DNA from: a virus | IMG/VR virus record: IMGVR_UViG_3300031552_000002 | Location: 1-64,000 of that record | Direction: 5' to 3' (one strand) | DNA: 64,000 nucleotides | In this document: positions 3,460 through 34,900 of the stretch, one piece after another | How positions within the stretch are numbered: the stretch's first letter is position 1 | Layout of the letters: every line of letters begins with the position of its first letter | Translations under genes and position numbers: made by a program | Notes under the pieces: generated by a model | Told to the model about the DNA's origin: nothing | What the model saw: the letters and a program-made list of their open reading frames with translations, nothing else | Database searches by the model: none

Positions 3460-3488
3460 ATAGTGTCACGTCCTGTAGGCCGTGTCAA
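3460..3488 (-). promoter_or_regulatory. promoter of the shared family (TTGACA-17-CACTAT)
   Basis: On the minus strand TTGACA is followed after 17 nt by CACTAT, with TG before the -10 (extended -10). It drives the operon 3375 to 38. The downstream half of the usual TGACA...TGTCA dyad is degenerate here. Confidence 0.75.
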
Positions 3489-9807: not shown

Positions 9808-10230
9808 TCAGGCCGGAGAATCCAAGATGCCGAGTCTCCGACCGGACCGGTCCTGGAGAATCATCCGGCGCGAACCGGGCCAGCAAGGGGACGCGACGAT
9901 CCTGCCCTCGTCCAGGGGGGCAGCCAGGGCGTGGAGGCCCTGGTCCGAGGTGACGGTCACCTCATACAGTGCCCGGGCCAGGCCGGGCCACTGGGCCAAG
10001 GTCATTTCGGAGCTGATGCCGGTCAGGGCCCCTCCCAGGGCCCCTGCGATCCGGCGTGCTGCCCTGTTCGCTGCCTGGTGCCCCGAGGTGTCCACGGGGA
10101 CGCTCAGGGGCGGGATCCTGCGTATCTCCAGATACGCGGTGCCGTTTTCGGCGATGGTGATGGCCCACCCATCGCCTGTGGGGAGGTTCGCGAGCGCCTC
10201 ACCCATGGTCAGCGCTGTGGTGATGGTCAT
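9808..10230 (-). CDS. hypothetical protein
   Basis: A 140-residue protein of unknown function with beta-rich N- and C-termini and an alanine-rich central helix (QAANRAARRIAGALGGALTG). It starts ATG behind GAGAGGACACC, the ribosome site shared by many accessory genes in this region, and ends at a strong terminator. No motif was recognised. Confidence 0.55.
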   Translation of the reverse strand: MTITTALTMGEALANLPTGDGWAITIAENGTAYLEIRRIPPLSVPVDTSGHQAANRAARRIAGALGGALTGISSEMTLAQWPGLARALYEVTVTSDQGLHALAAPLDEGRIVASPCWPGSRRMILQDRSGRRLGILDSPA

Positions 10231-10251
10231 GGTGTCCTCTCAGGAAGAGTT

Positions 10252-10285
10252 CTGGGGTGCCAGGGGTGGGCCCCTGGCACCCCAG
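10252..10285 (-). terminator. terminator hairpin
   Basis: A perfect 15-bp inverted repeat (CTGGGGTGCCAGGGG / CCCCTGGCACCCCAG) with a 4-nt loop, directly after the stop of the gene at 10290. Confidence 0.8.
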
Positions 10286-10289
10286 TTGG

Positions 10290-10610
10290 TCAGGCGGCGT
10301 CCGCGAGGATCTTGGCGTAGTGCCTCACCCCATCGAAGACGTCGTGGAGGGCGTCCTCGGAGAGGAACGCGTAGTTGATGTCCTCTAGCCTGTCGAAGGT
10401 CTCGTCAATGGCGTCCTGCCATTCCTGCGTGGTGATGGTGTTCGCGGCGATGGCCGCGTCCACGCGCGCTGCCTGCGTGAGCAGGTAGGTCGCGTCCTGG
10501 ATCCAGGAGGCGTGCTCGCGGTCGTTCTCGATTCCGAGCTGGGCGCGGAGGAAGTCCGCTGTCGTCTCGGTGACGGTGGCGGTGGTGGTGATGGTGATGG
10601 TGGCGTTCAT
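10290..10610 (-). CDS. small acidic protein, MNAT family
   Basis: A 106-residue, strongly acidic protein (about 20 Asp/Glu against 6 Arg/Lys). It begins MNATITIT, then is helical, with DAIDETFDRLEDINY near residues 66-80. It shares its promoter, leader and first four codons with the gene at 12036, and its general plan with those at 15684 and 34197. It stands alone between its own promoter and terminator. Small acidic phage proteins can be DNA mimics that block host defence enzymes; that role is inference only. Confidence 0.65.
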   Translation of the reverse strand: MNATITITTTATVTETTADFLRAQLGIENDREHASWIQDATYLLTQAARVDAAIAANTITTQEWQDAIDETFDRLEDINYAFLSEDALHDVFDGVRHYAKILADAA

Positions 10611-10684
10611 GGTGTCCTCCTGGTGGTGGTGGGGTGAACCTTGCCGACACCTGAATACTGTCAGGTGCGGCGGGCGTTGTCAAC
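10599..10684 (-). repeat. 86-bp inverted repeat, left copy (promoter, leader, first codons)
   Basis: Reading the minus strand from 10684 to 10599, the sequence matches the plus strand from 11962 to 12047 with no mismatch that I could see. The unit holds the promoter, a CACCTGA/TCAGGTG palindrome, the AGGAGGACACC ribosome site and the codons for MNAT. The two copies face each other as inverted repeats 1.3 kb apart. Confidence 0.85.
10655..10683 (-). promoter_or_regulatory. promoter of the shared family (TTGACA-17-CAGTAT)
   Basis: Minus strand: TTGACA, 17 nt, CAGTAT with TGA before it. The -10 sits inside the palindrome CACCTGACAGTATTCAGGTG, a likely operator. It drives the acidic protein gene at 10290. 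Confidence 0.85.
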
Positions 10685-11357: not shown

Positions 11358-11386
11358 ATACTGTCACCCTCAGTGCCCACTGTCAA
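11358..11386 (-). promoter_or_regulatory. promoter of the shared family (TTGACA-17-CAGTAT)
   Basis: Minus strand: TTGACA, 17 nt, CAGTAT, followed by GTGGATGCCAG, a near-copy of the downstream operator half. It drives the pentapeptide gene at 10748. Confidence 0.8.
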
Positions 11387-11516: not shown

Positions 11517-11549
11517 TGGCGCAACAGCATTCGAGCCAAGGGAGTCATC

Positions 11550-11933
11550 ATGAGATCGATATGGATGTTCCAGATCGAGCACCTCGTCGCCCCGTACACG
11601 ACCCGCAGCGACGACGGGACGATTGACTGGGGGGAGCCGGACCCCAACTATGTCGCGCTCATGCGGTCGATCATGAGAGGTGGGGCCTTTATCGTCATCT
11701 CCACCGATAAGGTATCGAAGGACAAGGCTCAGGGGCTCCACGGCTGGCTGGACAAGCACCACATCCCGGCGGGCCTTGCAGTCACAAGCAGCAGCACCGA
11801 CAGCCGCGACCACCTCGACCGGGCCAACGAGTGGCTTCGGGAGAACCTCAGCCCCGACGCCAAGGTGCTGGGGGCATTCACCCAGCCCCTTGACGGAGAC
11901 TGGCAGTCAGAGCACCTGGTCATGTATCCGTGA
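11550..11933 (+). CDS. hypothetical protein, paralogue of 16094-16525
   Basis: A 127-residue protein beginning MRSIWMFQIEHLVAP. The core is near-identical to the protein at 16094: DKAQGLHGWLDKHHIPAGL, then DSRDH(L/V)DRANEWLREN, then AKVLGAF. A strand followed by Ser/Thr (FIVISTD) and a helix, then a strand and a DSRD turn, recalls a reduced HAD-type fold, but the usual DxD nucleophile is not present. Function unknown. The ribosome site is AAGGGAG. Confidence 0.65.
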   Translation: MRSIWMFQIEHLVAPYTTRSDDGTIDWGEPDPNYVALMRSIMRGGAFIVISTDKVSKDKAQGLHGWLDKHHIPAGLAVTSSSTDSRDHLDRANEWLRENLSPDAKVLGAFTQPLDGDWQSEHLVMYP

Positions 11934-11961: not shown

Positions 11962-12047
11962 GTTGACAACGCCCGCCGCACCTGACAGTATTCAGGTGTC
12001 GGCAAGGTTCACCCCACCACCACCAGGAGGACACCATGAACGCCACC
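11962..12047 (+). repeat. 86-bp inverted repeat, right copy
   Basis: The plus-strand copy of the element at 10599-10684, identical by eye across 86 nt. The two copies bracket the pentapeptide gene (minus) and the gene at 11550 (plus). Recombination between them would invert this 1.3-kb segment. Confidence 0.85.
11963..11991 (+). promoter_or_regulatory. promoter of the shared family (TTGACA-17-CAGTAT)
   Basis: Plus strand: TTGACA, 17 nt, CAGTAT within the CACCTGA/TCAGGTG palindrome. It drives the gene at 12036. Confidence 0.85.
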
Positions 12048-12489: not shown

Positions 12490-13191
12490 CTACGGATCGG
12501 TGTAGGTACGCCAGGCGCGGGTGATGACCCCGGACCCGGGGAACAGGTCGTCCAGGGTGTCCCCGGGCTGGGCGTTGAGCAGGTCGAAGACCCACCGGGC
12601 GAAAACCGGTGGCTTGGTGCCGATGACACGGCCCGGGACAGTAGTCATGGGCGTCACCCCGTGCACGAGGGAGTCAGGCACTGCTTCCCCGTCAGGGTCA
12701 CGAGGCCGGGACGGCACATACAGTACGGGCTCCCACGCGGTCAGGGGGTTGCGGGACCGCGTAGGCCGGGGGCCCCGGTGCCACGCGGCGACACGGACCC
12801 CGCGCGGGCACAGGCCCAGGACCGCGGGTAGGGCGCTGGCCGAGGTTGACAGGGCCCATCCGTCATACCCGCAGAGCCGACGGATCAGCACGGCATGATC
12901 GACCTCCCCGGCGTAGTCCGGGTGATCCCGGTAGTAGTGCGCGAGCCCGGGGTACGGGGGGTCAGCGTAGGCCAGCCGCCGAGGACCCCCAGGGCAGGCA
13001 GGACCGGCGGTGCCGACGACCCGGGCGAACCTGGCCCGGGCCTGCCGGCAACGCTGCGAGCAGGTCAGGGCGTCGGACCGGGCGGCGGCCGGCAGGGGGC
13101 CCTCGCACCACGCGCAGGTGCGGGTAGCCGTCGAGTCCGGCCGCGGGCGACGGCTCAGGCCCCGCCCCGGGGCAGGGGCGGTGTCAGACAT
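12490..13191 (-). CDS. DNA amino-methyltransferase (beta-class order) with zinc finger
   Basis: A 233-residue protein. An N-terminal zinc knuckle (Cys26, Cys29, Cys44, Cys48) is followed by the catalytic motif IV DPPY (77-80) and, near the C-terminus, the S-adenosylmethionine motif DLFPGSG (about 215-221). The order IV then I is that of beta-class N6-adenine or N4-cytosine methyltransferases. It could protect phage DNA from restriction. Its ATG lies inside the truncated C5-methylase reading frame upstream. Target specificity cannot be read from sequence. Confidence 0.75.
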   Translation of the reverse strand: MSDTAPAPGRGLSRRPRPDSTATRTCAWCEGPLPAAARSDALTCSQRCRQARARFARVVGTAGPACPGGPRRLAYADPPYPGLAHYYRDHPDYAGEVDHAVLIRRLCGYDGWALSTSASALPAVLGLCPRGVRVAAWHRGPRPTRSRNPLTAWEPVLYVPSRPRDPDGEAVPDSLVHGVTPMTTVPGRVIGTKPPVFARWVFDLLNAQPGDTLDDLFPGSGVITRAWRTYTDP

Positions 13192-13303
13192 GGCCGGTCA
13201 GGGTCCAGTGGTTGGCGGCGGTGCGGACCTGGACGCCGGGGACTTGCATGGCCCCGGTGCTTGATCCGCCCGCCCCGCAGAACAGATCAGTCATGGTGAT
13301 CAT
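13184..13303 (-). pseudogene. vestigial start of a C5-cytosine methyltransferase
   Basis: A 39-residue ORF containing DLFCGAGGSSTGAM, the motif I signature of C5-cytosine DNA methyltransferases, then VRTAANHW, the usual next strand and acidic/aromatic motif in phage members of the family. It then ends at TGA, with no catalytic PC motif and no target-recognition domain. The next methyltransferase gene starts within its last codons. It is either a decayed gene replaced by the beta-class enzyme or a retained leader peptide. The ATG overlaps the upstream stop (ATGA). Confidence 0.7.
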
Positions 13304-13902
13304 CGCAGGTCCCTGAAGTTGGTAATGATGGTGTCATCGTTGGCGACCTGCTCAGCCTTAAGACCGGTGGCTGTCGGCCAGCACGCGCCGGGGCACAGGA
13401 GGGGAGTTAGGGCCCTGGCGGTGGCAGCGCTGGTGGTCTGCAGGTACAGGCCACTGGCCGTGACCGTGATGTGCCAGAGGTCCGCCAGGTTTATGGGGGA
13501 CCCGGGGACGGTCAGGGCCTCGTGCAGGCGGGCCAGGTGGCCGATCATGGCGCTGGAACCCGGGATGCGGTGCTGGATCAGCACCCGGGCGTCGTGAATG
13601 ATCGTGACGTCCGCGTAGTGCCCCCACGGTGTCGGCGCCCCGGACCCGGACCATTGAGTCAGCGGCGGGTGCGTGTTCTTGGACGGCGGGACCCCCAGGC
13701 GGTCAGCGAACACCTGGGCCGCCTCGACAGAGGCCATGGCCAGGGTCAGGTAGGGGGATCCCGGCTGGCACTGGTAGGTCGCGATACCGATGCTGTCGAT
13801 CTGTCCGGCCTCGGCGGGCAGCTGCCTGAGCAGGGCCAGCAGATCTGCCACGTGGGCCCCCGGGGAGGCGTACGAAACGGGCCGGTCGGTGCTGTCGGTC
13901 AT
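13300..13902 (-). CDS. hypothetical protein
   Basis: A 200-residue protein of unknown function with mixed alpha/beta composition and no recognised motif. I chose ATG at 13902 because AGAGAGGACATCACC precedes it; the longer open frame crosses the structured intergenic element at 13936-13993. Its stop overlaps the vestigial methylase start. Confidence 0.6.
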   Translation of the reverse strand: MTDSTDRPVSYASPGAHVADLLALLRQLPAEAGQIDSIGIATYQCQPGSPYLTLAMASVEAAQVFADRLGVPPSKNTHPPLTQWSGSGAPTPWGHYADVTIIHDARVLIQHRIPGSSAMIGHLARLHEALTVPGSPINLADLWHITVTASGLYLQTTSAATARALTPLLCPGACWPTATGLKAEQVANDDTIITNFRDLR

Positions 13903-13935
13903 GGTGATGTCCTCTCTGTGCTGGTGGTCAGGAGT

Positions 13936-13993
13936 GCCCTGGCCCGGTCTGACTCCGGGTGTCCCGCTCACGTCCCTGCGCGGGGTCCAGGGC
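13936..13993 (-). promoter_or_regulatory. three-way-junction leader element, copy A
   Basis: The outer stem GCCCTGG / CCAGGGC encloses two hairpins: CCCGG...CCGGG with a 7-nt loop (AGTCAGA on the minus strand) and CCCGC...GCGGG. It starts 11 nt after the upstream stop and ends 34 nt before the ATG at 13902. Copies B and C have the same plan and the same 34-nt spacing. Confidence 0.7.
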
Positions 13994-14003
13994 TGGCCTG
14001 GTG

Positions 14004-14732
14004 TCAGATCTCCCAGGAGGCTTCTCGTAGGCAGTCCTCGCACCACCAACGCGGTGCGAGTTCCTCATTGTCGTCGGAGGGAGCGGACCCGGGGCAGGCG
14101 CCGGGGCCAGCAAGCCACCACTCGACGGCGGACGGGTCGGGGGCGGACACCAGTTCGGGGACCTCAGGCACGGCCCGGTGGCACCTGTGGCATTTCCCCA
14201 GGGCGCCCTGGGCGGCCTGGCCCTGTGCCTCCTGGGCGGGGGGTGTTTCTCGGATCTCCCGCAGGTAGACCCCGAGAGCCTCCAGGGTGACGTGATGCTC
14301 CGGCTTGGTGGCGAGGGCGGACAACAGCCCGTGCAGACGCCACAGCCATTGACGGTCGGTGCTGGTAGGGGCGGGGCGGTGTGCCTTCAGCGCGCGGAGG
14401 ATCACGGCCTGGTCGGCGCCATACTGCTGTGCCAGGACTGAGGCGAGAGCCTCCACCCCAGCCCCCTCCACGGGGATCTGCCGTTCTTTGTCGAAGATCA
14501 AGCCGTCGGACTTACGTCCGATGACCTGCGTGAGCGCGGTCTCTCTGACGTCCCAGTGCCCACCAGACAGCTGTAGGACGGCCAGTTCGACATCGTGGCC
14601 GTCACCGGTCTCGGCGTCGACGACGGTGAGAGACACCTCACTGTCAGCGAGTGGGACGTCGCTGAAGAAACCGCCTCGAATGCGGATCTCGGTTCCCGGG
14701 TGGTAGAGATCCCCGATGGGGTACATGACCAT
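14004..14732 (-). CDS. hypothetical protein with C-terminal zinc ribbon
   Basis: A 242-residue protein. Residues 1-115 are clearly homologous to the whole protein at 14833-15186 (shared MVMY.IG, GTEI.I, VLQLS, WDVRE, ERQIPVEG.G.EALAS, QAVILRAL.AH). The extra C-terminal part has CHRC...CEDC, a likely zinc ribbon. The pair arose by duplication, with gain or loss of the zinc domain. Start ATG 14732 behind GAGAGGACA. Function unknown. Confidence 0.7.
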   Translation of the reverse strand: MVMYPIGDLYHPGTEIRIRGGFFSDVPLADSEVSLTVVDAETGDGHDVELAVLQLSGGHWDVRETALTQVIGRKSDGLIFDKERQIPVEGAGVEALASVLAQQYGADQAVILRALKAHRPAPTSTDRQWLWRLHGLLSALATKPEHHVTLEALGVYLREIRETPPAQEAQGQAAQGALGKCHRCHRAVPEVPELVSAPDPSAVEWWLAGPGACPGSAPSDDNEELAPRWWCEDCLREASWEI

Positions 14733-14765
14733 GATCTTGTCCTCTCTGGGGGTGATGCTGGTCGT

Positions 14766-14822
14766 GCCCTGGCCCGGTCCGACTCCGGGTGTCCCGCTCG
14801 CGTCCTGCGCGGGGTCCAGGGC
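14766..14822 (-). promoter_or_regulatory. three-way-junction leader element, copy B
   Basis: The outer stem GCCCTGG / CCAGGGC and both inner hairpins match copy A; the loop of the CCCGG hairpin differs by one base. It lies 11 nt after a stop and 34 nt before the ATG at 14732. Confidence 0.7.
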
Positions 14823-14832
14823 TGGTCTGGGG

Positions 14833-15186
14833 TCAGGCATCCGGGCCGGGGTGTGCCTGGAGGGCGCGGAGGATCACGGCCTGGTTTGCTCCGTACTCCT
14901 GAGCCAGGGCTGAGGCGAGGGCCTCCAGTCCGGTCCCCTCTACGGGGATCTGCCGTTCCTCGTCGTACACCCAGCTGTCGAACTTGCGTCCGACGAGCTG
15001 CCCGAGGATTGCCTCTCGGACGTCCCAAGAACCGTTCGACAGCTGTAGGACGGTCAGCTCGGCGTCGTACCCGTTGCCGGTGTCGGCGTCGGTGACGGCG
15101 AGATCCATCTCACAGTCTGTGAGTGGACCGTAAATGTCGATCTCGGTCCCCTGGTGGTACTCCTTGCCGATGGCGTACATGACCAT
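14833..15186 (-). CDS. hypothetical protein, short paralogue of 14004-14732
   Basis: A 117-residue protein that matches the N-terminal half of the next gene throughout and lacks its zinc-ribbon tail. It is mixed beta/alpha, with a highly conserved ERQIPVEG segment and a C-terminal helix QAVILRALQAH. Start ATG, ribosome site GAGAGGACACGACC. Conservation between the two copies suggests both are functional. No known family was recognised. Confidence 0.7.
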   Translation of the reverse strand: MVMYAIGKEYHQGTEIDIYGPLTDCEMDLAVTDADTGNGYDAELTVLQLSNGSWDVREAILGQLVGRKFDSWVYDEERQIPVEGTGLEALASALAQEYGANQAVILRALQAHPGPDA

Positions 15187-15220
15187 GGTCGTGTCCTCTC
15201 TGGTGGTGTTGTGGTCTGGC

Positions 15221-15274
15221 GCCTTGCCCCGGTCTGACTCCGGGCGCCCGCCTCAGTGGTGGCGGTGGCAAGGC
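15221..15274 (-). promoter_or_regulatory. three-way-junction leader element, copy C
   Basis: The outer stem here is GCCTTGCC / GGCAAGGC, different in sequence from copies A and B but still fully paired. The CCCGG hairpin with loop AGTCAGA is kept, and the second hairpin is CCGCC / GGCGG. It lies 34 nt before the ATG at 15186. Confidence 0.65.
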
Positions 15275-15281
15275 TGGTGGT

Positions 15282-15653
15282 TCAACGTGCCGAGCGGCGT
15301 GCTGCTTCAGCTCTCCGGTAGCGGGTAGCCCACCGGCGGACGAGCTTCCTAAGCTCGGTGGCCTCTGTTGGTGTCACGAAGACGTAGCCCTGCTGACAGC
15401 GCGTCAGCTGGTGGAGCTCGACCCAGCCCGGAGTCGAGTACTCCCAGGACTTGAAGAGTGGGCGGAGCACGGCGAGGAAAGCCTCGTCGTAGTTCCAGCC
15501 CCAGCTGGCGTTCCTGACGACGCTGTCGTCATCGATGACGGTGACGGCGTCGAGGGCGTCGGCGGGGACGCGGGGAGCGTTCCCCGGCTTCTGGGCCGGG
15601 TTCACTGTCGCCGGAATTCCGGCGATCAGCTCGCTCACCGTTTTCTCGCTCAT
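15282..15653 (-). CDS. hypothetical protein
   Basis: A 123-residue protein of unknown function. The N-terminus is flexible and Pro/Ala-rich; the middle has aromatic-rich strands (WGWNYDEAFLAVLRPLF), and the C-terminus is a basic helix (LRKLVRRWATRYRRAEAARRSAR) that could bind nucleic acid. Start ATG 15653. It is the first gene of the group whose intergenic gaps carry the three-way-junction elements. Confidence 0.6.
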   Translation of the reverse strand: MSEKTVSELIAGIPATVNPAQKPGNAPRVPADALDAVTVIDDDSVVRNASWGWNYDEAFLAVLRPLFKSWEYSTPGWVELHQLTRCQQGYVFVTPTEATELRKLVRRWATRYRRAEAARRSAR

Positions 15654-15683: not shown

Positions 15684-15938
15684 TCAGGCGGCGAGCGCGG
15701 TCTCGATGATCTCGCCCGCCTCGTCACCGGTGAGGTAGGCGATGGTCTCGCTGACCACCGGGTCGATGTTGCTGGCGCTGATGGGGGTGTCGGCGCCGAT
15801 GTTGAGGGTGTAGGTGACGCGTCCCACCGCCAGGTTCTCGGCGACGCCGTTGTTGGCGCCGAGGGCCGCGAGTTCGGCGTTGAGGTACTCCTCGACCAGG
15901 TCGCTGATGAGGTCGGTGACGGTGGGGGTGGCGTTCAT
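15684..15938 (-). CDS. very small acidic protein, MNAT family
   Basis: An 84-residue protein with about 13 Asp/Glu and one Arg, beginning MNATPTVTDLISDLVEEY. It shares the MNAT start and AGGAGGACACC leader with 10290 and 12036 and has its own family promoter at 15972. Its extreme acidity with almost no basic residues fits a nucleic-acid mimic or an inhibitor of a basic protein; this is inference. Confidence 0.65.
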   Translation of the reverse strand: MNATPTVTDLISDLVEEYLNAELAALGANNGVAENLAVGRVTYTLNIGADTPISASNIDPVVSETIAYLTGDEAGEIIETALAA

Positions 15939-15971: not shown

Positions 15972-16000
15972 ATACTGTCATGTGCCGTAGGTGCTGTCAA
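15972..16000 (-). promoter_or_regulatory. promoter of the shared family (TTGACA-17-CAGTAT)
   Basis: Minus strand: TTGACA (as TGTCAA on plus), 17 nt, CAGTAT, followed by GTGGATGTCAG, giving the full TGACA-N9-TGTCA dyad. It drives the gene at 15684. Confidence 0.85.
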
Positions 16001-16093: not shown

Positions 16094-16525
16094 TCACATC
16101 ACCTGTAGGTGATCTGCACTTCCAGATCCGTAACTGAACGCCCCTAGCACCTTGGCGCTGGGGTAGAGGTTTTCCCGGAGCCACTCGTTGGCCCGGTCCA
16201 CATGGTCACGACTGTCGGTGTTACTGCTCACGATGGTCAGGCCCGCCGGGATGTGGTGCTTGTCCAGCCAGCCGTGGAGCCCCTGAGCCTTGTCCTTCGA
16301 CACCAGGTCGGTGGAGGCCACGATGAAGGCCCCACCCCTCATGAGCGACCGCATGAGCGCGGCATAGCCAGGATCCGGCTCCCCCCAAGAAATCACCCCA
16401 CCATCACCCAGCACCGGGGCCGGAGCGACAAGGTACTCGATGTCGAACATCCAAGCCGACCGCCTGACTACTCCCTTAGCTCGACGGAGAAGGTACTCGA
16501 TGTCGAACATCCAAACTGACCGCAT
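16094..16525 (-). CDS. hypothetical protein, paralogue of 11550-11933, with duplicated start
   Basis: A 143-residue protein. Residues about 24-143 match the 127-residue protein at 11550, including DKAQGLHGWLDKHHIPAGL. The first 23 residues are an extra copy of the start, caused by a 60-bp tandem duplication; the inner copy has lost its ATG (now AGG) but keeps the ribosome-site sequence. Translation should therefore start at the outer copy and add a 20-residue extension. Function unknown. Confidence 0.65.
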   Translation of the reverse strand: MRSVWMFDIEYLLRRAKGVVRRSAWMFDIEYLVAPAPVLGDGGVISWGEPDPGYAALMRSLMRGGAFIVASTDLVSKDKAQGLHGWLDKHHIPAGLTIVSSNTDSRDHVDRANEWLRENLYPSAKVLGAFSYGSGSADHLQVM

Positions 16526-17086: not shown

Positions 17087-17115
17087 ATACTGTCACGTGC
17101 GGCTGTCATTGTCAA
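17087..17115 (-). promoter_or_regulatory. promoter of the shared family (TTGACA-17-CAGTAT)
   Basis: Minus strand: TTGACA, 17 nt, CAGTAT, then GTGGACGTCGG, a one-change variant of the operator half. It drives the gene at 16536 and possibly 16094. Confidence 0.85.
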
Positions 17116-17765: not shown

Positions 17766-18344
17766 TCAGGGAGAGCAGAGCTCGGGATCGGCGGCTCTCC
17801 GACGCTGCCTGAGGGCCGCCTTGACGTAGTCCGGCACCGGCACGCCCTTGCCGGCGCACTCCGGGCAGCAGATGACACGGTGGGTCGGGTGGTCAGGGCA
17901 CATCGCCTGAGGACCGGGAGCCGGGTGGGCCGCTGTGTGCCGATCTGACGGCCTCAAATCGCGAAGCCATGCCACCACAGCACCACCGTGGCACGAACCC
18001 CAGGACCGGGAACCTACGGCGGCGGAAATGGTCCCTGGGGTCCACCCGTCGGCTATCAGCCGCTCACACTCCCGGATGATGACTCCCCGGTTCAGGGACC
18101 GGCCCACGTCACCGACACCCTCGACAACCGCCTCAGCGAGGAGGGCAGTGGTTCCCCTGTGCCCGGCCTCAGTCGGGTTCTGGGTTGCGGGGTTTCCCGT
18201 TGATCCTTCCACCACCACCGTTGCCTCGTCTTGGGGTGCGGTGGGGCCGGTGGGCTGGGGGGCTTGGGGGGTGGATGGTTCTACGGATGGTTCTAAGGAT
18301 GGTTCGGGGGATGCTGGCATCCTCCCCCCCCCGGATGCTGGCAT
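17766..18344 (-). CDS. replication-initiator-like protein, C-terminal part (frame-shifted)
   Basis: Continues the gene at 18293 in another frame. It begins within the Gly/Pro-rich repeat, has a long disordered Pro/Thr linker, then a helical segment (IIRECERLIADGWTPGTISAAVG...VVAWLRDLRPSD) and a zinc ribbon (CPDH...CCPECAGKG). If the first G-tract had nine rather than eight G, the two ORFs would form one protein of about 310 residues. It may be translated by slippage or only in a phase-ON variant. Confidence 0.65.
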   Translation of the reverse strand: MPASGGGRMPASPEPSLEPSVEPSTPQAPQPTGPTAPQDEATVVVEGSTGNPATQNPTEAGHRGTTALLAEAVVEGVGDVGRSLNRGVIIRECERLIADGWTPGTISAAVGSRSWGSCHGGAVVAWLRDLRPSDRHTAAHPAPGPQAMCPDHPTHRVICCPECAGKGVPVPDYVKAALRQRRRAADPELCSP

Positions 18345-18697
18345 CCTCCCCCCCCGGATGCTGGCATCCCCCCCTGTTCAGGTGTCCGATGCTGCGACGT
18401 CCCATCGCAGCCGGCCGGACACCGGACGAGGATTTCATACCGGTTCGGACGCTCATGCTCAGCGGTCCGGCGAGTCCCGCCATCGCCCAGGTGAGTCCGG
18501 ATCTCGCCGGCAGTCTCCAGGCGGCGCAGGGCCGCGCGGACGTTCCGGGGATCGACGTTCGCGTACTTGGCCAGCGTCGCGATGGTCGGCCAGGACCCGC
18601 CGTCGCCGTCGTGGTTGGCGATCCCGAGGAGGACGACCTTGTCGGTGCCTCTGGACCGTGAGTGGTGCAGGACGATCGCCAGTGCCTCGACGCTCAT
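18293..18697 (-). CDS. replication-initiator-like winged-helix protein, N-terminal part
   Basis: A 134-residue ORF whose first 95 residues form a winged helix typical of actinophage replication-initiator or HTH_36 proteins (MSVEALAIVLHHSRS..., SWPTIATLAKYANVDPRNVRAALRRLETAGEI). It then runs into a Gly-rich repeat and stops. The 23/24-bp repeat units contain G7, G8 and G9 tracts on the minus strand, and the 8-G tract breaks the frame. A small upstream ORF ends in an ATGA overlap with its start. Confidence 0.75.
   Translation of the reverse strand: MSVEALAIVLHHSRSRGTDKVVLLGIANHDGDGGSWPTIATLAKYANVDPRNVRAALRRLETAGEIRTHLGDGGTRRTAEHERPNRYEILVRCPAGCDGTSQHRTPEQGGMPASGGGGCQHPGGGGCQHPPNHP
18307..18377 (-). 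repeat. tandem repeat with poly-G tracts (G9, G8, G7)
   Basis: The plus strand shows three copies of GGATGCTGGCAT separated by C9, C8 and C7 runs, with unit lengths of 24 and 23 bp. Loss of one base in the 8-base tract explains the frame break between the two halves of the initiator-like gene. Confidence 0.85.
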
Positions 18698-25946: not shown

Positions 25947-26452
25947 ATAGGGCTACGCACCGGTTGGCTGGGGCGGTGGCAGGGCTCGGGGTGGGGCTGG
26001 TGGAGGGGTGGGAGCCTGGGCGGGCTGTCCTGGGGGTCGGCCTGTCGGTCCTCGTGTCGGGGGGCGTGCTGTCGCCGGATATGGATCAGTACGGGTGGTG
26101 GAGGTTCCTGGACCGGTGGGTCCCGGACGAGGTGCTGGGTCGGGGCGGGCCGCTACAGCACCGGGGGATCACGCATTGGTGGGGGCTGCCGGTGCTGGTC
26201 CTGGTGTGGCTGGTGGTGGTGGGCCCGGGTCTGCTGTGGCCTGTCTTGGCGCTGCTCGCCGGCTGGGGGTCTCACCTGGTGGGGGATCTTCTCTATGGGG
26301 CGGAGAGCCCGGGGCGTGGGCCGGGTATTCCGATGGGGTTGTGGTGGGGGCATAGGGGTGTGGGGTGGCATTCGGGTGGGCGGGGTGAGGTGTGGGTGGC
26401 GAGGCCGGTGCTGGTGGTGCTGGTGCTGGGGTTGTTGGCGTTGTCGTGTTGA
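25943..26452 (+). CDS. membrane-bound metal-dependent hydrolase-like protein (YdjM type)
   Basis: A 169-residue membrane protein. The motif LSPDMDQ near residue 42 and LQHRGITHWW near residue 72, followed by SHLVGDLLY, match the YdjM/DUF457 family of putative membrane metal hydrolases, which keep SPDxD, HRGxTH and HxxxD. The GTG overlaps the previous stop. The promoter of the next unit overlaps its stop codon, so the boundaries are very tight. Confidence 0.75.
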   Translation: MNRATHRLAGAVAGLGVGLVEGWEPGRAVLGVGLSVLVSGGVLSPDMDQYGWWRFLDRWVPDEVLGRGGPLQHRGITHWWGLPVLVLVWLVVVGPGLLWPVLALLAGWGSHLVGDLLYGAESPGRGPGIPMGLWWGHRGVGWHSGGRGEVWVARPVLVVLVLGLLALSC

Positions 26453-26477
26453 CACAACCCACTACATGTGACAGTAT
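26449..26477 (+). promoter_or_regulatory. promoter of the shared family (TTGACA-17-CAGTAT)
   Basis: Plus strand: TTGACA, 17 nt, CAGTAT, then GTGGATGTCAG, with the complete TGACA-N9-TGTCA dyad. The -35 overlaps the stop of the YdjM-like gene. It drives the genes at 26508 and 27310. Confidence 0.9.
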
Positions 26478-28522: not shown

Positions 28523-28551
28523 TTGACACACGCCACAAGACGTGACACTAT
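28523..28551 (+). promoter_or_regulatory. promoter of the shared family (TTGACA-17-CACTAT)
   Basis: Plus strand: TTGACA, 17 nt ending GTGA, CACTAT. The downstream operator half is degenerate. It drives the genes at 28579 and 29310. The gap before it holds two CCCTGCCCTGAGGG repeats (one within the preceding gene end) and no ORF that I trust. Confidence 0.85.
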
Positions 28552-34871: not shown

Positions 34872-34900
34872 ATACTGTCACAACGTGGTGTGTGTGTCAA
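34872..34900 (-). promoter_or_regulatory. promoter of the shared family (TTGACA-17-CAGTAT)
   Basis: Minus strand: TTGACA, 17 nt, CAGTAT, then GTGGATGTCAG (full TGACA-N9-TGTCA dyad). It drives 34832 to 34585. Confidence 0.9.

Follow-up and report, generated by a model that had tools for sequence, protein, structure and literature searches.

The operon and its intercistronic elements

The analyzed window is a stretch of 64,000 nucleotides, part of a virus record of 75,791 bases (75.8 kb) in IMG/VR, with a G+C content of 66%. Matches to DnaB, RecT, YqaJ exonuclease, an NlpC/P60-like protein, a tail tube protein, and terminase in this record place the virus among the tailed phages of Actinobacteria. 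The nearest relatives of its DnaB show 68% or less amino acid identity and are scattered over many actinobacterial genera. Its kin through DnaB (up to 68% amino acid identity) and terminase (TerL, up to 61%) have few other genes in common.

Five leftward genes, which probably constitute one transcription unit judging from their direction and spacing, were recognized in the window (Table 1). No known family was found for any of the five. The structure prediction for the gene 3 protein was poor (pLDDT 57), and its model showed no match to known folds. The gaps before genes 3, 4, and 5 contain one copy each of a structured element, designated as C, B, and A, respectively, while the 30-nt gap before gene 2 is without an element. 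On the minus strand at 13180-13294, a short reading frame MTDLFCGAGGSSTGAMQVPGVQVRTAANHWTLTGHV followed by a stop codon resembles the start of DNA cytosine methyltransferases, and looks like a truncated remnant or a very short gene.

Table 1. Positions of the operon genes, the three elements, and the associated signals in the window.
Feature	Position	Strand	Remarks
Promoter-family site TTGACA-N17-CAGTAT	15972..16000	-	Upstream of operon; sequence match only
Operon gene 1	15684..15938	-	First gene; no known family
Operon gene 2	15282..15653	-	Stop 7 nt before element C
Element C	15221..15274	-	Same fold as A and B; 16-18 substitutions vs. A/B, 4 compensated stem pairs
Ribosome-binding motif CAGAGAGGACA	15192..15202	-	Downstream of C
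Operon gene 3	14833..15186	-	117 aa; downstream of C; paralogue of gene 4 (67% aa identity)
Element B	14766..14822	-	Same fold as A; loop AGUCGGA; vs. A, a 1-nt indel and 2 substitutions at complementary loop positions
Ribosome-binding motif CAGAGAGGACA	14738..14748	-	Downstream of B
Operon gene 4	14004..14732	-	Downstream of B; paralogue of gene 3 with an extra cysteine-containing C-terminal part
Element A	13936..13993	-	Three-way junction RNA; loop AGUCAGA
Stems of element A	P1 13993-13987/13942-13936; P2 13984-13980/13967-13963; P3 13959-13955/13947-13943	-	
Ribosome-binding motif CAGAGAGGACA	13908..13918	-	Downstream of A; SAS-like; identical for B and C
Operon gene 5	13300..13902	-	Downstream of A; no clear kinship to genes 3/4, weak forced alignment only

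The site upstream of the operon belongs to a promoter-like family, TTGACA-N17-CAGTAT, with 12 matches in the window against 1.6 expected. Other sites of this family include 3460-3488 (-), 10655-10683 (-), 11358-11386 (-), 11963-11991 (+), 17087-17115 (-), 26449-26477 (+), 28523-28551 (+), and 34872-34900 (-).

The elements are 58 (A), 57 (B), and 54 nt (C) in length. Every copy has the same order of parts: a 7-bp stem P1, a 2-nt linker, a 5-bp stem P2, a 3-nt linker, and a 5-bp stem P3, which is closed by the 7-nt loop AGUCRGA and joins P1 with a linker of 0 nt. The same three-way junction was the minimum-energy structure of each isolated minus-strand element with RNAfold (-32.5, -31.0, and -28.9 kcal/mol for A, B, and C; shuffle z -2.96, -2.34, and -2.31), while the plus-strand folds differed among the copies and none was common. 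The coordinates and stems given for the three copies in the initial annotation agree with these results, all on the minus strand and in successive gaps of one leftward operon. Its spacing of 8-11 nt after a stop codon and 34 nt before a start codon needs slight adjustment: the measured distances are 10, 10, and 7 nt from the stop codon and 33, 33, and 34 nt to the ATG for A, B, and C, respectively.

When each element was folded in a 240-nt context (ViennaRNA ensemble), the pair probability of P1 was 0.99 in A, 0.88 in B, and 0.02 in C; in copy C, P2 and P3 were kept and P1 was outcompeted. Other DNA from phages and bacteria, 3.1 Mb in total, had only approximately 10 distinct chance places that fit a simple descriptor of the junction shape. 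The 11.8 kb of the record outside the window had no further copies.

The elements stand in front of GAGAGGACA, a conserved ribosome-binding motif common to many genes of the phage. The conserved ribosome-binding motif GAGAGGAC was found at approximately 10 places shortly upstream of start codons (1629, 10241, 13916, 14746, 15200, 41216, and 42687 on the minus strand; 22483, 26497, and 30928 on the plus strand), and it recalls the start-associated sequences of other phages. Upstream of the same motif, the gap before the gene at 10230 contains a 15-bp hairpin, CTGGGGTGCCAGGGG...CCCCTGGCACCCCAG (10231-10289, minus strand); the 95-nt leader of this gene has a shuffle z of -6.2.

Paired substitutions and a conserved hairpin

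The three copies are related by duplication, and all are in one genome. Only two substitutions and one indel separate A from B, which are recent duplicates; therefore, the copies offer one deep and one shallow comparison. B and C differ by 18 substitutions in 54 nt, while the adjoining paralogous genes differ less, at 22% of nucleotides.

Between A and C, there are 16 substitutions. Eight of them are in stems, and these eight make up four double-compensated pairs (P1 pairs 4 and 7, P2 pairs 3 and 4) with no pair broken, which bears out the initial annotation in its claim that pairing is kept while the sequence changes in copy C. In a simulation, eight random stem substitutions left all 17 pairs canonical in 133 of 2,000,000 trials (approximately 7 × 10−5), although this figure is somewhat generous because the structure was picked after seeing the sequences. 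All two-sided changes vanished when the register was slid by 1-3 columns. In total, five pairs were changed on both sides, including one loop-loop pair; the mean for shuffled alignments was 1.7, and one of 500 shuffles was equally high.

The loop-loop pair connects the loops of P2 and P3 (L2 and L3). Both substitutions between A and B are at complementary loop positions: in L2, copy A has U and copy B has C (column 24), and in L3, copy A has A and copy B has G (column 44). Every copy could form 3 bp between YGA in L2 and UCR in L3, and the change between A and B preserves the pair. A conserved 3-bp L2-L3 run with a covarying pair appeared in 0.5% of column permutations, and two transitions in A would give such L2-L3 covariation in 6 of 276 placements. 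A contact between L2 and L3, absent from the initial annotation, is suggested by this one pair of changes.

P3 and L3 (17 nt) show another pattern of conservation. They are identical between A and C, and B differs at one loop base. Outside P3/L3, 16 of 37 aligned positions are changed between A and C (approximately 43%), and under an even rate of change the chance of an unchanged P3/L3 is approximately 7 × 10−5. Helices kept as pairs together with one hairpin kept as sequence would be the pattern expected of a recognition site on a fold.

These observations, the compensation in P1 and P2, the covarying loop-loop contact, and the near-invariance of P3/L3, support selection on RNA structure, as the initial annotation had proposed from the stems. 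Complementary changes alone cannot distinguish RNA from single-stranded DNA. The confinement of the common fold to the minus strand and the fixed spacing to the start codons point to mRNA, and RNA rather than DNA is likely the active form. The lengths of 58, 57, and 54 nt shift the reading frame between copies, and thus a translated leader peptide with a conserved frame was rejected.

Comparison with known RNA structures and phage repeats

In Rfam 15, no family, including the purine riboswitch and self-cleaving ribozymes, matched the element above the gathering cut-off, and relaxed limits gave only chance-level matches; Rfam family membership was accordingly rejected. The purine riboswitch aptamer is a three-way junction whose two hairpin loops touch. 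The likeness of the element to it is in topology only, and the linkers of 2, 3, and 0 nt leave no room for a ligand-binding junction. The early mRNA of T7 carries RNase III sites between successive cistrons, a similar case of structured RNA repeated within one phage operon. Those sites are single irregular hairpins, unlike the short-armed three-way junction of the element. No phage three-way-junction leader was found described in the literature searched.

Repeats at gene starts are known from several groups of actinophages, without a known function. The SAS of Cluster K mycobacteriophages are 13 bp long and located at ribosome-binding sites, and about half of them have upstream ESAS, inverted repeats of 17 bp with a spacer of 4-13 bp; both are without a known function there (PMC3203893). 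Comparable repeats upstream of start codons are known in the Microbacterium phage clusters EC, EF, and EG: the ESAS counterpart in Cluster EF is a weak motif, Cluster EG has 18-bp inverted repeats, and Cluster EC has an 18-bp motif (PMC7302621). Cluster O phages have 17-bp palindromes (PMC4351075).

The present elements resemble SAS and ESAS in being repeated non-coding elements in small gaps before the starts of non-structural genes (PMC3203893, PMC7302621). The SAS at the ribosome-binding site with the ESAS inverted repeat upstream corresponds here to the GAGAGGACA motif with the folded element upstream. All three copies are on the minus strand, in gaps directly before starts in the direction of transcription, and 33-34 nt before the ATG. 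The parallel to SAS is closer because this phage has the conserved GAGAGGAC motif at about 10 places before starts.

The sequence and shape are different. The 13-bp SAS consensus is GGGATAGGAGCCC in Cluster K and GGGAAAGGACCCC in Cluster EF, while the motif here is CAGAGAGGACA, and only the AGGA core and its neighbours are common to them. In place of a 17-bp inverted repeat pair with a 4-13-bp spacer, the element has three arms of 7, 5, and 5 bp around a junction. SAS/ESAS have 10-19 sites per genome against three elements in the present phage; ESAS are not a branched RNA, and the passages on them report no covariation, whereas the present element is branched and compensated (PMC3203893, PMC7302621). 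The repeats of clusters EG and EC are likewise intergenic, in one orientation, and within a fixed window upstream of starts (14-22 or 21-30 bp), with the EC motifs upstream of the ribosome-binding site; they are short, unbranched single motifs with 8-12 copies per genome, in contrast to the three-way junction of the element (PMC7302621).

By sequence and shape, the element is outside the SAS/ESAS, EC, EG, and Cluster O families. Of the known systems, the SAS/ESAS of actinophages may come nearest to it in their working, although its RNA fold is more elaborate. The comparison indicates a real, selected-looking structured RNA module that appears new in sequence and shape, of a broad kind already known (start-associated repeats), and whose function we infer below. 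The copies keep pairing and not sequence, which argues that at least one start-associated system acts as folded RNA.

Homologues of the element were searched for at several levels. The exact core CCCGGAGTCRGACCGGG was found in 15 contigs of IMG/VR, none of which has the junction, and a looser pattern of the core and P1 had no matches in IMG/VR. A covariance model, the check proposed in the initial annotation for related phages, gave only chance-level scores against 87 virus records of DnaB and terminase kin, and so provided no homologue from an independent lineage for R-scape-type support of the stems. The model also gave chance-level scores against 10 whole genomes and against 1,187 actinobacterial genomes from three orders, but in the large screens only a few candidates are scored for each genome, and diverged copies would be missed. 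Protein searches revealed no usable relatives of genes 1 and 2 in IMG/VR and phage records, of gene 2 in plasmid records, or of a gene 2/3 alignment in genome contigs, and the sole match of gene 3 in IMG/VR was a 16-residue chance match. Since no homologue was found, the finding stands on three related copies in one virus.

A candidate recognition module and its alternatives

The reading favoured here, with a probability a little short of even, is that the elements are a cis-acting RNA module whose P3/L3 is bound by a trans-acting factor that sets the expression of the downstream cistron. The leftward polycistronic mRNA would carry this module three times, once in each element. P1 and P2 would be the scaffold, conserved only as pairing, and P3 with the AGUCRGA loop would be the sequence-specific recognition hairpin, held by coaxial stacking of P1 and P3 and probably also by the L2-L3 contact (UCR with YGA). 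The factor would most likely be an RNA-binding protein of the phage or the host that binds P3/L3 and sets the expression of the cistron starting 33-34 nt downstream. Against this reading are the small number of duplicated copies, all three in one genome, with no homologue in the collections searched, the poor model of the paralogous downstream protein, which has no fold match that would mark it as the factor, and the disfavoured P1 of copy C in long-context folding.

In predicted folds, the ribosome-binding motif is mostly open in B and C, while part of it in A pairs with sequence beyond the element. The module is therefore unlikely to be a simple switch masking the Shine-Dalgarno sequence, and this candidate was rejected. 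Judging from the footprint sizes of terminating and initiating ribosomes, a ribosome at the stop codon of the preceding gene probably reaches with its leading edge to about the beginning of the element, and the end of the element is well upstream of the stretch covered by an initiating ribosome. With this position between the two footprints, the module could persist on actively translated mRNA. The unmasked motif in B and C and the position between the footprints favour a binding site for a trans-acting factor; the main rival is a role in processing or stability.

In this main rival, a nuclease would cut at or beside the junction and the fold would shield the new 3' or 5' ends, for which the RNase III sites of T7 early mRNA are a model. 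In front of three successive cistrons, the elements fill the space from the preceding stop codon to the ribosome-binding site and leave the coding regions untouched, and the structure is strong and kept, all consistent with processing. With helices of only 5-7 bp, or 12 bp in a P1/P3 stack, the structure falls short of usual RNase III substrates, and processing alone leaves the near-invariant P3 loop unexplained; the explanation is distinctly doubtful.

Another candidate is an antitermination or pause signal of the put or nut type, by which the nascent RNA modifies RNA polymerase. The conserved hairpin loop of a structured RNA, within an operon preceded by a site of the phage promoter family, would fit such a signal. 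Such sites are usually single and near the promoter, whereas the copies here precede three separate cistrons, and the fixed spacing to the start codon favours translation or processing; this origin of the structure is improbable.

Since all copies are related, the elements might have no function and be gaps with inverted repeats spread by duplication, their paired changes made by template switching within hairpins. Templated correction between hairpin arms can create paired changes in one step. Such events would have to occur independently in P1 and in P2, two separate loops would have to change in a matching way, and the invariant P3/L3 would still be unexplained; this reading is quite improbable.

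A role at the DNA level, as an attC-like folded single strand, a REP-like mobile repeat, or a boundary aiding gene duplication or joining, is very improbable. The module does move with duplicated genes, and the near-identical A and B stand before unrelated genes. However, the copies number only three, in one orientation and at a constant distance from the starts, and the common junction fold is confined to the mRNA-like strand. As for an integron attC site in particular, the GTT/AAC core triplets are absent from all three copies and the fold is branched rather than a single hairpin, and this identity was rejected.

Least probable are intrinsic terminators or attenuators between cistrons, which the initial annotation had named as the reading that would undo its proposal: the hairpins are G+C-rich and intergenic, but no T tract follows any copy, no rho-independent terminator was called there by the terminator scan, the terminator-like hairpins of the phage itself are single stems of 14-18 bp, and three terminators in succession would starve the downstream genes.

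If the trans-acting factor reads the elements as proposed, they might represent a class of structured RNA not described before, in which a three-way junction with kissing loops, repeated before single cistrons of one operon, serves an RNA-binding regulator as an address tag, but this broader proposition is rather doubtful. If true, reading of the address tag would be the post-transcriptional counterpart, in phage operons, of repeated DNA operators. The element, the 33-nt spacer, and the start codon provide a compact construct for a reporter test, and any protein found to bind the element would regulate several cistrons of one phage operon post-transcriptionally through a repeated RNA tag.

Several other repeats were recognized in the window. 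Two different small genes have their promoter, ribosome-binding site, and start on a perfect 86-nt inverted duplicate (10599-10684 and 11962-12047). A 350-nt inverted repeat with 80% identity (11531-11880 and 16135-16484) is a duplicated small gene in opposite orientations, and its copy at 16.4 kb has an additional 56-nt tandem duplication near its start. At 18309-18378, three tandem GGATGCTGGCATCCTCCCCCCCC-like units are located within a predicted reading frame.
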